From assembly GCA_020348925.1 (NCBI GenBank), contig CP070758.1, positions 94,048 to 102,264 on the forward strand: a DNA stretch of 8,217 nt, written 5' to 3'. Each line of letters begins with the position of its first letter. The first letter of the stretch is position 1. Both the position numbers and the translations under genes were made by a program. Positions 3,074 through 6,996 of the stretch are shown piece after piece. The DNA is from Gemmatimonadota bacterium. Its GTDB lineage: Bacteria > JBHIER01 > G020348925. Under the pieces are notes generated by a model that made no database searches, was not told where the DNA came from, and worked only from the letters and a program-made list of their open reading frames with translations.

Positions 3074-3321
3074 CTTTTTACAACCCCCTAAATCCCCCTT
3101 TCATAAGGGGGACTTTTAAGGGTGTGCCCTTCTATAAGGGGACTTTTAAGGGTGTGGCCCTTTGATACGTGGAATTTTCAATGTGTGCCCTTTCATAAGA
3201 GGAACTCTAAAGTATAGAGATTTTTTATTAAGAGATTTCTATGTAATACTCCTGAGCTATAAAGAAATCTGTACTTATTCCCCCCTATTAAGGGGGGATA
3301 CAGGGGGGTGTTACTTTTTAC
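3074..3321. mobile_element. MITE-like element with 8-bp flanking direct repeat, between atpH and atpA
   Basis: A 232-bp core (3082-3313) is bounded by imperfect inverted ends. The left end reads AACCCCCTAAATCCCCC, followed by a TTTCATAAGGGGG hairpin arm. The right end, read on the minus strand, is TAACACCCCCCTGTATCCC followed by a similar TTAATAGGGGGG arm. The core is flanked on both sides by the identical octamer CTTTTTAC (3074-3081 and 3314-3321), consistent with a target-site duplication. It has no coding capacity of note, so any movement would need a transposase supplied elsewhere. The right end forms a strong C6/G6 hairpin (3280-3285 with 3292-3297). Most of the 370-bp gap between atpH and atpA is this element. 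The mobile interpretation is inferred from structure. Confidence 0.62.
3096..3213. repeat. Tandem repeat, about 31-bp period, four decaying copies
   Basis: Units begin with CCCTT at 3096, 3127, 3158 and 3188, so the period is 31, 31 and 30 bp. The first two units are nearly identical: CCCTTTCATAAGGGGGAC and CCCTTCTATAAGGGGAC, each followed by TTTTAAGGGTGTG. The third and fourth have diverged and the fourth is incomplete. Each unit is itself partly palindromic (CCCTT...AAGGG). The array lies inside the MITE-like element and probably arose by internal duplication of its left end. Confidence 0.72.
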
Positions 3322-4717: not shown

Positions 4718-5452
4718 TTAATGTTCGATATGGATAGCGGCGCTGATGTACATGGCCGCCAGAATAGTAAAAATGTATGCTTGAATGCCAGCCACAAAAA
4801 TCTCAAAGGCGCTCATAACCACCACTCCAGTCAGGGGCAGTATCGCGAAAATGAAACTCTTCAGAGAAAGAATAAGGAACAGAAAGACGAGAATCACCCC
4901 GTGACCTGCCAGCATGTTGGCAAAAAGACGAATGGCCAGGGAAAACGGCTTAGCAAATTGGCTAATGATCTCTATGGGAATCATGATGGGCAGAATCCAG
5001 AGGGGGATACCCGAGGGGATGAACCCCTTCAGATACTTAATGGGACCGTGTTTATAGACACCGACCCCTTGAACGGCAAGGAAGACCATGATCGCCAGTG
5101 CCGCTGTCACGTTGATGTTGGACGTGGCCGTGAAAGAGCCGGGAATGAGGCCCAGAAGATTGCAGATCAAAATGAAGAGAAAGAGGGTGGCAATAAAGGG
5201 AAACCAGGGTAATCCCTCCTTGCCCATCGTCTCCAGAACGAGGCTGTTTCTCAAAAAGTTTATGATGACCTCCATGATGTTCTGGAGACCGGAAGGTATG
5301 AGCCGGCTCCGCCTCGTTGCAATAATCGAGAGAATAAAAAGAAGGGCACAGGCGACCCACATCATGATGACGGCTTTTGTGATTGACATATCGATCCCAA
5401 AGAGATGCAGTTCCACGATGGGGTGAAGCTCAAAATGTTCTAATAAGTGCAC
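4718..5452 (-). CDS. atpB: Fo ATP synthase a subunit
   Basis: Static membrane subunit that provides the two proton half-channels next to the c ring. With the start used here it is 244 aa with five or six hydrophobic segments. The essential arginine is Arg175 in SLAIRLFANMLAGH. Glu161 lies 14 residues before it, as in E. coli. Gln224 in GIQAYIF is also conserved. His184 and Glu217 occupy the positions of E. coli Glu219 and His245, a swapped pair known in many a subunits. The start was set at GTG 5450-5452 because GGAGG lies 7 nt upstream. A longer reading from GTG 5471-5473 (251 aa) would translate through this ribosome binding site and give an odd MDMGGCV prefix. The insertion that separates atpB from atpI ends about 25 bp upstream, leaving the ribosome binding site intact. 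Confidence 0.96.
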   Translation of the reverse strand: MHLLEHFELHPIVELHLFGIDMSITKAVIMMWVACALLFILSIIATRRSRLIPSGLQNIMEVIINFLRNSLVLETMGKEGLPWFPFIATLFLFILICNLLGLIPGSFTATSNINVTAALAIMVFLAVQGVGVYKHGPIKYLKGFIPSGIPLWILPIMIPIEIISQFAKPFSLAIRLFANMLAGHGVILVFLFLILSLKSFIFAILPLTGVVVMSAFEIFVAGIQAYIFTILAAMYISAAIHIEH

Positions 5453-5476
5453 TACACATCCTCCCATGTCCACACA

Positions 5477-5515
5477 TGAGCAGAGGAGCAGAGGTGCTGG
5501 GGTGCTGGGGTGCTG
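5477..5515. repeat. Left boundary repeat of the IVP cassette
   Basis: The block starts with GAGCAGAGGAGCAGAGG (5478-5494), followed by a period-8 run TGCTGGGG TGCTGGGG TGCTG (5495-5515). CAGAGGAGCAGAGG (5481-5494) matches 5962-5975 perfectly in inverted orientation (14 bp). TGAGCAGAGGAGC (5477-5489) matches 5983-5995 perfectly in inverted orientation (13 bp). It sits between the IVP-like gene and the atpB ribosome binding site. Confidence 0.8.
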
Positions 5516-5557
5516 ATGAGTATGTACGATAATTTTCTATTATTTCCGTTCTGCATC

Positions 5558-5950
5558 TCAAGCCCTCTTCATAAGCCAAGGTTGTGGATTCGTAATCATG
5601 TTCACCCGTTTTCCTATGATCCAATCATACGTCTGGTAAAGTTCATTCGCAATGTCCTTTTTCAAATAACCACATTTTTCGGAAAATTCCAACCACGTTT
5701 GCGTTTCAGCTGCCTCAGCTTCTGATTCATTCAACTTATTAACAAACGCAGCTTCATATCGCCTTCTGCGCCAGGCTTCGGCGATGTTTGCGCAAACCGA
5801 TCTTGATGACTTGCGAATTTGATCTGTTAATGAATATTGTTCTTCCTTTGGGAAATCCGTGGTTACCTTAAAAATTTTCATTGCTGCTTTGAAAGCCAAT
5901 TTGTAAACCTCCAATTCACGATGAGTTTGAATAGCTTTCTTCCGCTCCAA
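5558..5950 (-). CDS. Four-helix-bundle protein, 23S rRNA intervening-sequence (IVP) family
   Basis: Small soluble protein of the family first seen inside intervening sequences of 23S rRNA. Its biochemical role is not settled. It has no known part in ATP synthase. The 130 aa product shows the family layout: RELEVYKLAF at the start, FPKEEQYSLTDQIRKSSRSV (33-52), then CANIAEAWRRRRYEAAF, then a Glu/Ala-rich third helix and a final helix ending near Trp125. The start was chosen as TTG 5948-5950 because AGGAGG lies 8 nt upstream. GTG 5957-5959 would overlap that ribosome binding site. The ribosome binding site belongs to the boundary repeat itself. The gene overlaps the atpI reading frame by 35 bp. 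Two sampled 60-bp stretches of the gene have 35-37% GC, against 58% in a stretch of atpA. Together with the bounding repeats this points to insertion into the operon. It has no RNA gene around it. Confidence 0.88.
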   Translation of the reverse strand: MERKKAIQTHRELEVYKLAFKAAMKIFKVTTDFPKEEQYSLTDQIRKSSRSVCANIAEAWRRRRYEAAFVNKLNESEAEAAETQTWLEFSEKCGYLKKDIANELYQTYDWIIGKRVNMITNPQPWLMKRA

Positions 5951-6362
5951 TACTGTCACCTCCTCTGCTCCTCTGTACCCCAGCTCCTCTGCTCAAAACA
6001 CGAATTTCCCAGATAAGAAAGAGAGTAAATCCAATTAGAAAGGTAACCAGTGTTACAATAATATTAAGAGCAGAGACTCTTGATAATCCGTAAAAGATAA
6101 AGCCCAAGACCGTCAGGCGAAATAAAAATCCGAATAAAATAATAATTTCACTTTTTACAAGGGACGTCGTCAGTGCTTTCGACGAGAGGGTCAGGGAGAG
6201 GTAAAAGTTGGCCAGAGCCAAAAGGAGGCCGACCCCCGCTCCTAGCAAGAATGGATGATGGAATCCAAAAAAGATCGTAAGCAGACCAACACAACCGGCT
6301 AGTATTATTACAACAAGGAGATCTTTACCTTCTACACCTTTCGGACGAAAAAGTGTTCCCAA
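5916..6362 (-). CDS. atpI: ATP synthase protein I family membrane protein, C-terminus altered by insertion
   Basis: Small membrane accessory of the ATP synt_I type, linked in other bacteria to c-ring assembly or cation supply for the enzyme. The 148 aa reading frame has four hydrophobic segments at about residues 15-33, 37-58, 72-93 and 98-118, the usual layout. The start is TTG (6360-6362) with AGGA about 9 nt upstream and no better start nearby. It follows atpZ by 11 bp. From about residue 123 onward the frame runs into the boundary repeat and the start of the IVP-like gene. The last 25 or so residues (SRGAGVQRSRGG...) are therefore encoded by inserted DNA and are rich in Gly, Arg and Ser. 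The core should still be functional; the native tail is lost. Confidence 0.82.
   Translation of the reverse strand: MGTLFRPKGVEGKDLLVVIILAGCVGLLTIFFGFHHPFLLGAGVGLLLALANFYLSLTLSSKALTTSLVKSEIIILFGFLFRLTVLGFIFYGLSRVSALNIIVTLVTFLIGFTLFLIWEIRVLSRGAGVQRSRGGDSIGAEESYSNSS
5962..5995. repeat. Right boundary repeat of the IVP cassette
   Basis: On the minus strand this reads TGAGCAGAGGAGC, then TGGGGTA, then CAGAGGAGCAGAGG. It has the same two word types, GAGCAGAGG and TGGGGT, as the left boundary, in inverted orientation. It forms the end of the atpI reading frame, and its last AGGAGG is the ribosome binding site of the IVP-like gene. Confidence 0.8.
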
Positions 6363-6373
6363 GCTTCGAGTTC

Positions 6374-6607
6374 CTATGTCTCCTTCTCCTTTTTCTCCTC
6401 AGATGTCATCAATCGAAAAACATTTCTGAACCCGGCTGCCGATCCCAGGACAAAACCCACAATCATGAGCCAGGGGCGGGTATGCAGCCAGCGATCCAAA
6501 AGATATCCGCCAAAAGTGCCCATGAGCACGGCGACAAGCATCTCGACGCCGAGGTTCCCGTAGGTGAACAACTGATCCCTCAGACCTTTTTTTCTATTTT
6601 CAGTCAT
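6374..6607 (-). CDS. atpZ: AtpZ-type accessory protein of ATP synthase
   Basis: Small two-helix membrane protein of the F0F1-ATPase-associated AtpZ/AtpI family, coded ahead of atpI as in many operons. From ATG 6605-6607 it has 77 aa: a charged N-terminus, helix 1 at about 17-36, the family turn GGYLLDRWLHTRPWLMI (33-49), helix 2 to about 63, then RNVFRLM and a Lys/Glu tail. The ribosome binding site before this ATG is poor. The frame stays open up to a TTG at 6692-6694, giving 106 aa with a hydrophilic, cysteine-containing prefix. The shorter form matches the family better. Its role in cation uptake or c-ring assembly is known from other bacteria and only inferred here. Confidence 0.83.
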   Translation of the reverse strand: MTENRKKGLRDQLFTYGNLGVEMLVAVLMGTFGGYLLDRWLHTRPWLMIVGFVLGSAAGFRNVFRLMTSEEKKEKET

Positions 6608-6704
6608 CCGGGAATTTTCACAGCCCAACTCCCTCTTGTGCAGGGGCGCCGAAAAAATTTCCTCTGAGCGGCCTTGCGTCTGACAATTCTTCAAACCGAC
6701 AGCT

Positions 6705-6956
6705 TTATCCTCGGCCCCGCGGTGTCTTCGAAGAGAACGGCTCTCTCATTATTCTGAGGAATTCGATAAATCCAAAAGCAACACTGAGCAGGAGACTGAG
6801 GATCATCAGCCAGGGGAAGTTGCCAAATCGCAAAACCAAAAAGTGGCCCACATGATACCCGAGAAGCAGGAAAGCGGCCACAAGAAAGCCGCATCCACCG
6901 ACGACCTCAAGGACACGGACTATGTCTTTTCCACCCTTTTTTCTGAATTGGCCCAC
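6705..6956 (-). CDS. Second AtpZ-like two-helix membrane protein, first gene of the operon
   Basis: An 83 aa protein with two hydrophobic segments (about 17-41 and 48-68) and basic ends. It shares with atpZ downstream the layout G-Y-x-x-G/D, a short loop, PWLMI, an aliphatic helix, GF and R-I/L-M. This suggests a divergent paralog. The LD after the first GY in atpZ is GH here. The start is uncertain. GTG 6954-6956 gives a short basic leader before helix 1. GTG 6972-6974 would add six residues. Neither has a clear ribosome binding site. It lies just downstream of a candidate minus-strand promoter and 97 bp before atpZ. It could be an unrelated small membrane protein, but place and pattern favour the AtpZ type. 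Confidence 0.65.
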   Translation of the reverse strand: MGQFRKKGGKDIVRVLEVVGGCGFLVAAFLLLGYHVGHFLVLRFGNFPWLMILSLLLSVAFGFIEFLRIMREPFSSKTPRGRG

Positions 6957-6967
6957 AATACAAACAC

Positions 6968-6996
6968 TTGACACAATTTAAATATAGGGCTATATT
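6968..6996 (+). promoter_or_regulatory. Candidate sigma70 promoter for the antiporter gene
   Basis: TTGACA (6968-6973), 17-nt spacer, TATATT (6991-6996). The -35 box is a perfect consensus, the spacing is ideal and the -10 has one mismatch. Transcription would start near 7003 and give a leader of about 127 nt before the antiporter start. The -35 box overlaps the longest reading of the AtpZ-like gene on the other strand. Confidence 0.62.

Follow-up and report, generated by a model that had tools for sequence, protein, structure and literature searches.

An IVP-family gene between inverted octamer arrays in an ATP synthase operon, a probable copy of a minimal mobile unit

Within the ATP synthase (atp) operon of a Gemmatimonadota bacterium we identified a 519-bp segment that is probably one copy of a minimal mobile unit, in which a gene of the 23S rRNA intervening-sequence protein (IVP) family lies between inverted arrays of a 7-9 nt repeat particular to its IVP lineage. 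The same layout recurs in other genomes: the two arms of an element have a common repeat unit, units agree with IVP clades, homology between copies ends at the arrays, and two sites were found in both occupied and unoccupied form. The array-IVP unit recurs in many bacterial groups and seems to represent a very small type of mobile element that has been overlooked. The window, by which we mean the whole 8,217-nucleotide stretch analysed, corresponds to the atp operon of a 5.04-Mb genome consisting of a single contig, and the unit and its neighbours comprise the following features:

4718..5473, minus strand: atpB (F0 subunit a), downstream neighbour of the IVP gene; PF00119, E 7.2e-67
5477..5517, plus strand: downstream arm (in gene orientation), inverted; octamer array GAGCAGAG GAGCAGAG GTGCTGGG GTGCTGGG GTGCTGAT
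5477..5995, minus strand: complete array-IVP-array unit, 519 bp; terminal complementarity equalled in 0 of 2,000 shuffles; predicted RNA fold pairs both ends, z -2.16
5558..5959, minus strand: IVP gene, 133-aa four-helix-bundle protein with a GTG start; PF05635, E 3.5e-31; TIGR02436, E 1.1e-28
5916..6362, minus strand: AtpI-like ORF, from the ORF list; PF03899, 21.5 bits, under the 25.1-bit cut-off
5955..5995, minus strand: upstream arm (in gene orientation); octamer array GAGCAGAG GAGCTGGG GTACAGAG GAGCAGAG

A preliminary description of this DNA had placed an IVP-family gene on the operon strand between atpI and atpB. Family membership was confirmed by profile scores far above their cut-offs (PF05635, 108 bits against 33.8; TIGR02436, 99.6 against 24), as was the identity of atpB, while the sub-threshold PF03899 score allows the other neighbour to be called no more than AtpI-like. 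The final ~25 codons of the AtpI-like ORF are array-encoded and the IVP start overlaps this ORF; the upstream arm overlaps the IVP start together with the 3' end of this ORF, and the downstream arm adjoins the atpB GTG start at 5473. As had also been described, the window revealed no transposase and, by Rfam, no rRNA; Rfam likewise found no rRNA in 19 other IVP loci, and IVP is the sole gene of the unit. None of the 29 atpB loci read in other genomes has an IVP gene beside atpB. Also identified in the window were a 30-bp tandem repeat of 3.5 copies (CCCTTTCATAAGGGGACTTTTAAGGGTGTG; 3096-3203) that lies between atpA and atpH and bears no relation to the octamer, and, at the start of the operon, two adjacent ORFs matching PF09527 (ATPase_gene1; 6374-6974), an apparent duplication.

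The arms flanking the IVP gene are inverted arrays of one G-rich octamer, GWGCWGRG. Perfect inverted repeats of 13 and 14 bp and a period-8 run had been noted at these boundaries, and their coordinates hold: positions 5477-5489 (TGAGCAGAGGAGC) are the exact reverse complement of 5983-5995, as are 5481-5494 of 5962-5975, and period-8 arrays were detected by TRF on both sides of the gene (5478-5494, 5493-5515 and 5960-5994). With both boundaries formed by tandem arrays of one octamer family, in inverted order, the 13- and 14-bp matches represent registers of the same arrays rather than separate repeats. The match between the arms is not a product of chance, its local score of 15 being reached by none of 2,000 dinucleotide shuffles (maximum 13). 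The predicted RNA fold of the unit is a hairpin closed by these arms.

A pattern search for octamer arrays across the window's genome returned ~18 clusters (51 matches, versus 1 for the reversed pattern), most of them solo and lacking an IVP gene, and the genome's three other IVP genes have no arms. Three of its loci hold ORF6N, HEPN and HicB/HicA genes between octamer arrays in direct rather than inverted order (L022 4765-5613, L024 5572-6151 and L028 4859-5849), showing that octamer arrays also gather small mobile-type genes besides IVP. In a scan of genome contigs, octamer arrays were detected mostly in Cyanobacteria, being very common in Nostocales, and also in Chloroflexota, Planctomycetota, Acidobacteriota and others. 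The solo arrays of the window's genome, their abundance in Nostocales and the other genes caught among them are what would be expected if the arrays were ordinary tandem repeats spreading by slippage and recombination, with IVP genes trapped between two of them and moved by inter-array recombination in which IVP takes no part. The preliminary description had named repeats scattered with no link to IVP genes as grounds for abandoning its proposal, and the octamer arrays without IVP at ~17 other clusters of this genome go part of the way towards that. Judged on this genome alone, the arrays would appear independent of IVP; the cross-genome evidence set out below outweighs them.

Inverted arms around IVP genes were examined in two sets. 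The first, selected in part through octamer arrays, comprised 86 IVP genes, some from array-bearing genomes and some from others; at an arm score of at least 16, inverted short-unit arms flanked 44 of these versus 1 of 86 neighbouring ORFs. Its controls include edge ORFs with faulty flank slices, which could only have raised the control scores, and the slices were corrected in the second set. Given the partial selection of the first set through octamer arrays, the second was drawn from 145 genomes of different families with a Pfam match as the sole criterion, yielding 67 IVP genes in ~38 genomes. Here, at a score of at least 15, inverted arms were found around 29 of 67 IVP genes and 0 of 22 neighbours (p 3.5e-5). 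Periods among the 31 elements scoring at least 13 were 7 (20 elements), 8 (7), 9 (1) and 6 (1), with two unclear, and the units were nearly all different (e.g. AAGGCAT, AAAGGTA, GTTAACA, GGTTCCT, AGAAGAC and GAGAGGTC). A score of at least 15 was reached by 43% of own arm pairs versus 0.1% of cross-element pairs. Since arms match within elements and not between them, the rule is one unit per element, present on both sides, and not one sequence throughout. Of the expectation that repeats of the window's type would flank IVP genes elsewhere, the inverted arrays are therefore borne out and a universal repeat sequence is not. Within the octamer clade, own arms were more alike on average than crosses (mean 23.1 versus 16.9), yet the own arm ranked first in its row in no more than 3 of 9 cases, for which reason we claim no arm-to-arm copying beyond the common unit. 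Detectable arms were missing in more than half of IVP genes, and co-direction of IVP with neighbouring genes showed only a mild bias.

Phylogenetic analysis revealed that the repeat unit follows the IVP lineage. A maximum-likelihood tree of 85 IVP proteins requires 16 changes of unit, compared with a mean of 27.2 and a minimum of 23 when units are shuffled (0 of 1,000 shuffles as low); the tree rests on 132 columns, and many of its inner forks are consequently unresolved. This agreement persists when elements with a common insertion site are removed (16 changes versus a shuffled mean of 24.8), and also for period alone and inside the IVP subfamily of the window. Within the larger octamer group, distinct clades carry the 7-mer GGCAGGG, the 9-mer GGAGGCAGG and the 9-mer GGTGTGGGG. 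Such agreement could reflect plain co-inheritance and is not proof that the IVP protein reads its repeat. The nearest relative of the window's IVP on the tree belongs to a genome of unrelated lineage (G001; 74% over 90 columns), in which rpmB and ftsZ flank the gene and the arrays are inverted as they are in the window. Among plasmid records the closest relatives are cyanobacterial (66% identity), and in several Nostoc plasmids an array abuts the IVP start codon, with its reverse complement within ~10 nt after the stop. A different arrangement occurs in genome G008 (L450-L452), where head-to-head pairs of IVP genes ~55-70 bp apart are present in several copies per genome, with degenerate 7-mer repeats on one outer side.

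Comparison of IVP copies at unrelated loci showed that their common homology extends to the outer ends of the arrays and no further. One genome provides an example in two of its loci, L273 and L274, which are 97% identical over a 508-bp block whose limits lie 73 bp ahead of the start and 42 bp past the stop. At the L274 site, a close relative (G113) possesses the same flanks and a solo two-unit array of L274's unit with no IVP gene, where G106 carries the full unit; two further relatives (G109 and G110) have neither array nor IVP. A second occupied and unoccupied site was found in Nostoc sp. UHCC 0302, in which plasmid unnamed5 holds the unit where plasmids unnamed4 and unnamed6 hold 21 bp, the upstream flanks being 95-97% identical. 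The earlier statement that no clear target duplication was visible extends to these two unoccupied sites, neither of which shows one, and no recombinase or transposase was tied to the IVP unit among the loci read. Gain and loss at the two sites are not separable with certainty. Arrays of a clade's unit were also more numerous in genomes with the matching IVP clade (228 in G106, 622 in G097 and 109 in G060, versus a median of 0; p 0.0015), as they were for a second unit (p 0.003), with exceptions in which solo arrays abound without a matching IVP (139 in G063 and 57 in G086 for one unit; 111 in G060 for the other). Separately, at a junction that holds an IVP unit elsewhere, a plasmid of Nostoc sp. 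UHCC 0870 carries inverted heptamer arrays (AATTCAG / CTCCTGA; L407 2640-2780) with no IVP between them, resembling a non-autonomous derivative.

Together, these observations bear on the explanation by ordinary tandem repeats. The solo array of G113 at the site of the full unit in G106 would fit it; against it, the arrays around IVP genes are inverted and abut the start and stop, unlike the direct order around other small genes of the window's genome, the same layout occurs with different units per IVP clade in different phyla, and neighbouring ORFs lack inverted arms. We therefore consider this explanation unlikely. For the mobile unit itself, the preliminary description had suggested a hitchhiking passenger gene with its own repeat boundaries. 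Recurrent inverted arms, including those of the nearest relative in G001, homology ending at the arrays, two occupied/unoccupied sites and the lack of an IVP gene at the 29 other atpB loci support a unit with such boundaries. It is the term passenger that fits less well, since the association of repeat unit with IVP clade makes IVP appear to be the unit's core gene.

For most moderately diverged IVP pairs dN/dS was 0.07-0.17, indicating that the protein is kept by selection. This purifying selection, the position of the arms right at the IVP start and stop, and the predicted hairpin closing on them might suggest a regulatory or RNA-stability feature, whereby paired arms protect or control the IVP mRNA, IVP binds it in autoregulation, and the unit rarely moves. 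Near-identical copies at unrelated loci, unoccupied sites and the many solo arrays of the same unit point instead to movement, making this account improbable. Less probable still is that cyanobacterial plasmids possess a tyrosine-recombinase system of which the unit is a cargo, mobilised along with the recombinase: a tyrosine recombinase gene directly follows IVP in four cyanobacterial plasmid loci (L224, L227, L229 and L230) and some homology blocks continue ~1.1 kb downstream of IVP, but in the window and at most of the other loci read IVP has no recombinase gene as a neighbour, and many blocks extend no further than the arrays.

How a minimal mobile unit of this kind might move can be outlined from its layout. 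A single strand, as RNA or ssDNA, would fold into a hairpin with the ORF in its loop, as in the 23S rRNA intervening sequences (IVSs), and the IVP protein may bind its own repeat. A profile search of solved structures with IVP reached 2gsc (Xanthomonas XCC0516), a homopentamer of four-helix bundles (PMC4990558), and 2rld, and not Avd; a single-sequence AlphaFold model of the window's IVP was poor (pLDDT 55). An enzyme of the host or of another element could then copy the unit into new intergenic places. Acting in trans, IVP could in addition disperse solo arrays of its unit, much as RAYTs are thought to do with REPs. Since the RNA arms pair, RNase III may excise the insert from co-transcripts, and an operon such as atp would then tolerate the insertion. 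A broader proposal, which we regard as possible though doubtful, is that a very widespread class of minimal mobile elements is built around IVP genes, with IVP proteins creating and spreading 7-9 nt arrays across bacterial genomes, as Avd-like pentamers perhaps acting with a reverse transcriptase or polymerase, and ribosomal IVSs being copies that landed in rRNA.

These results join two old puzzles, namely how short-unit arrays arose in the genomes of Cyanobacteria, Xanthomonas and others, and what function and mobility can be ascribed to IVP/S23 proteins, which have so far been known mainly from rRNA insertions. If correct, the mobile-unit reading would account for the genes annotated as 'four helix bundle protein' that stand alone between unrelated genes in many bacteria. 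Given that each IVP clade carries its own repeat, IVP binding and spread are directly testable with matched and mismatched pairs.

With respect to known systems, the unit is not an insertion sequence or transposon, having no transposase and no duplication at the two unoccupied sites. The window's IVP shows a distant sequence kinship to Avd, the accessory protein of diversity-generating retroelements, through scores below the cut-offs (bAvd PF22296, 26.1 bits against 40; NF033474, 20.9 against 80); no reverse transcriptase was seen among the window's ORFs, and we do not assign it to Avd. Heptamer repeats described elsewhere (GGGAATC/GGGGAYT, PMC4692102; TAACTGA, PMC4679880) and cyanobacterial STRR are the same kind of intergenic short-unit array, sometimes in inverted pairs. 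The two heptamer papers leave origin and spread open, mention neither four-helix nor S23 proteins, and do not link arrays to IVP (PMC4692102, PMC4679880). Our literature search, with subscription journals mostly outside its scope, found no link between IVP genes and tandem arrays. RAYT genes with REP/REPIN sequences (PMC3116915) provide a closer parallel, as in both cases a gene adjoins short repeats of its own type that are dispersed, and the genome contains further, non-autonomous copies. The window's unit, a gene flanked by copies of a genome-dispersed repeat, shares this geometry and falls outside the RAYT/REP class in having IVP as its sole gene and no Y1 (HUH) transposase; unlike RAYT, IVP is a four-helix bundle without a known catalytic site, and its repeats are tandem arrays where REPs are palindromes. 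Closest are the 23S rRNA IVSs of Coxiella and Leptospira, which carry an ORF of the same protein family (S23/IVP) inside complementary ends that fold into a closing stem (PMC4990558); that of Coxiella has a 28-bp stem cut by RNase III (PMC4990558). Complementary ends closing a stem around the ORF are likewise present in the window's unit, which also shares the size range of ~430-520 nt and is nevertheless not a 23S rRNA IVS, lying in the atp operon of a window without rRNA by Rfam. Unlike the ribosomal IVSs, the array-IVP unit is intergenic, its stems are 7-9-nt tandem arrays, and solo copies of its repeat occur across genomes. In our reading, the unit is a free-standing IVS relative with RAYT/REP-like geometry and genetics.
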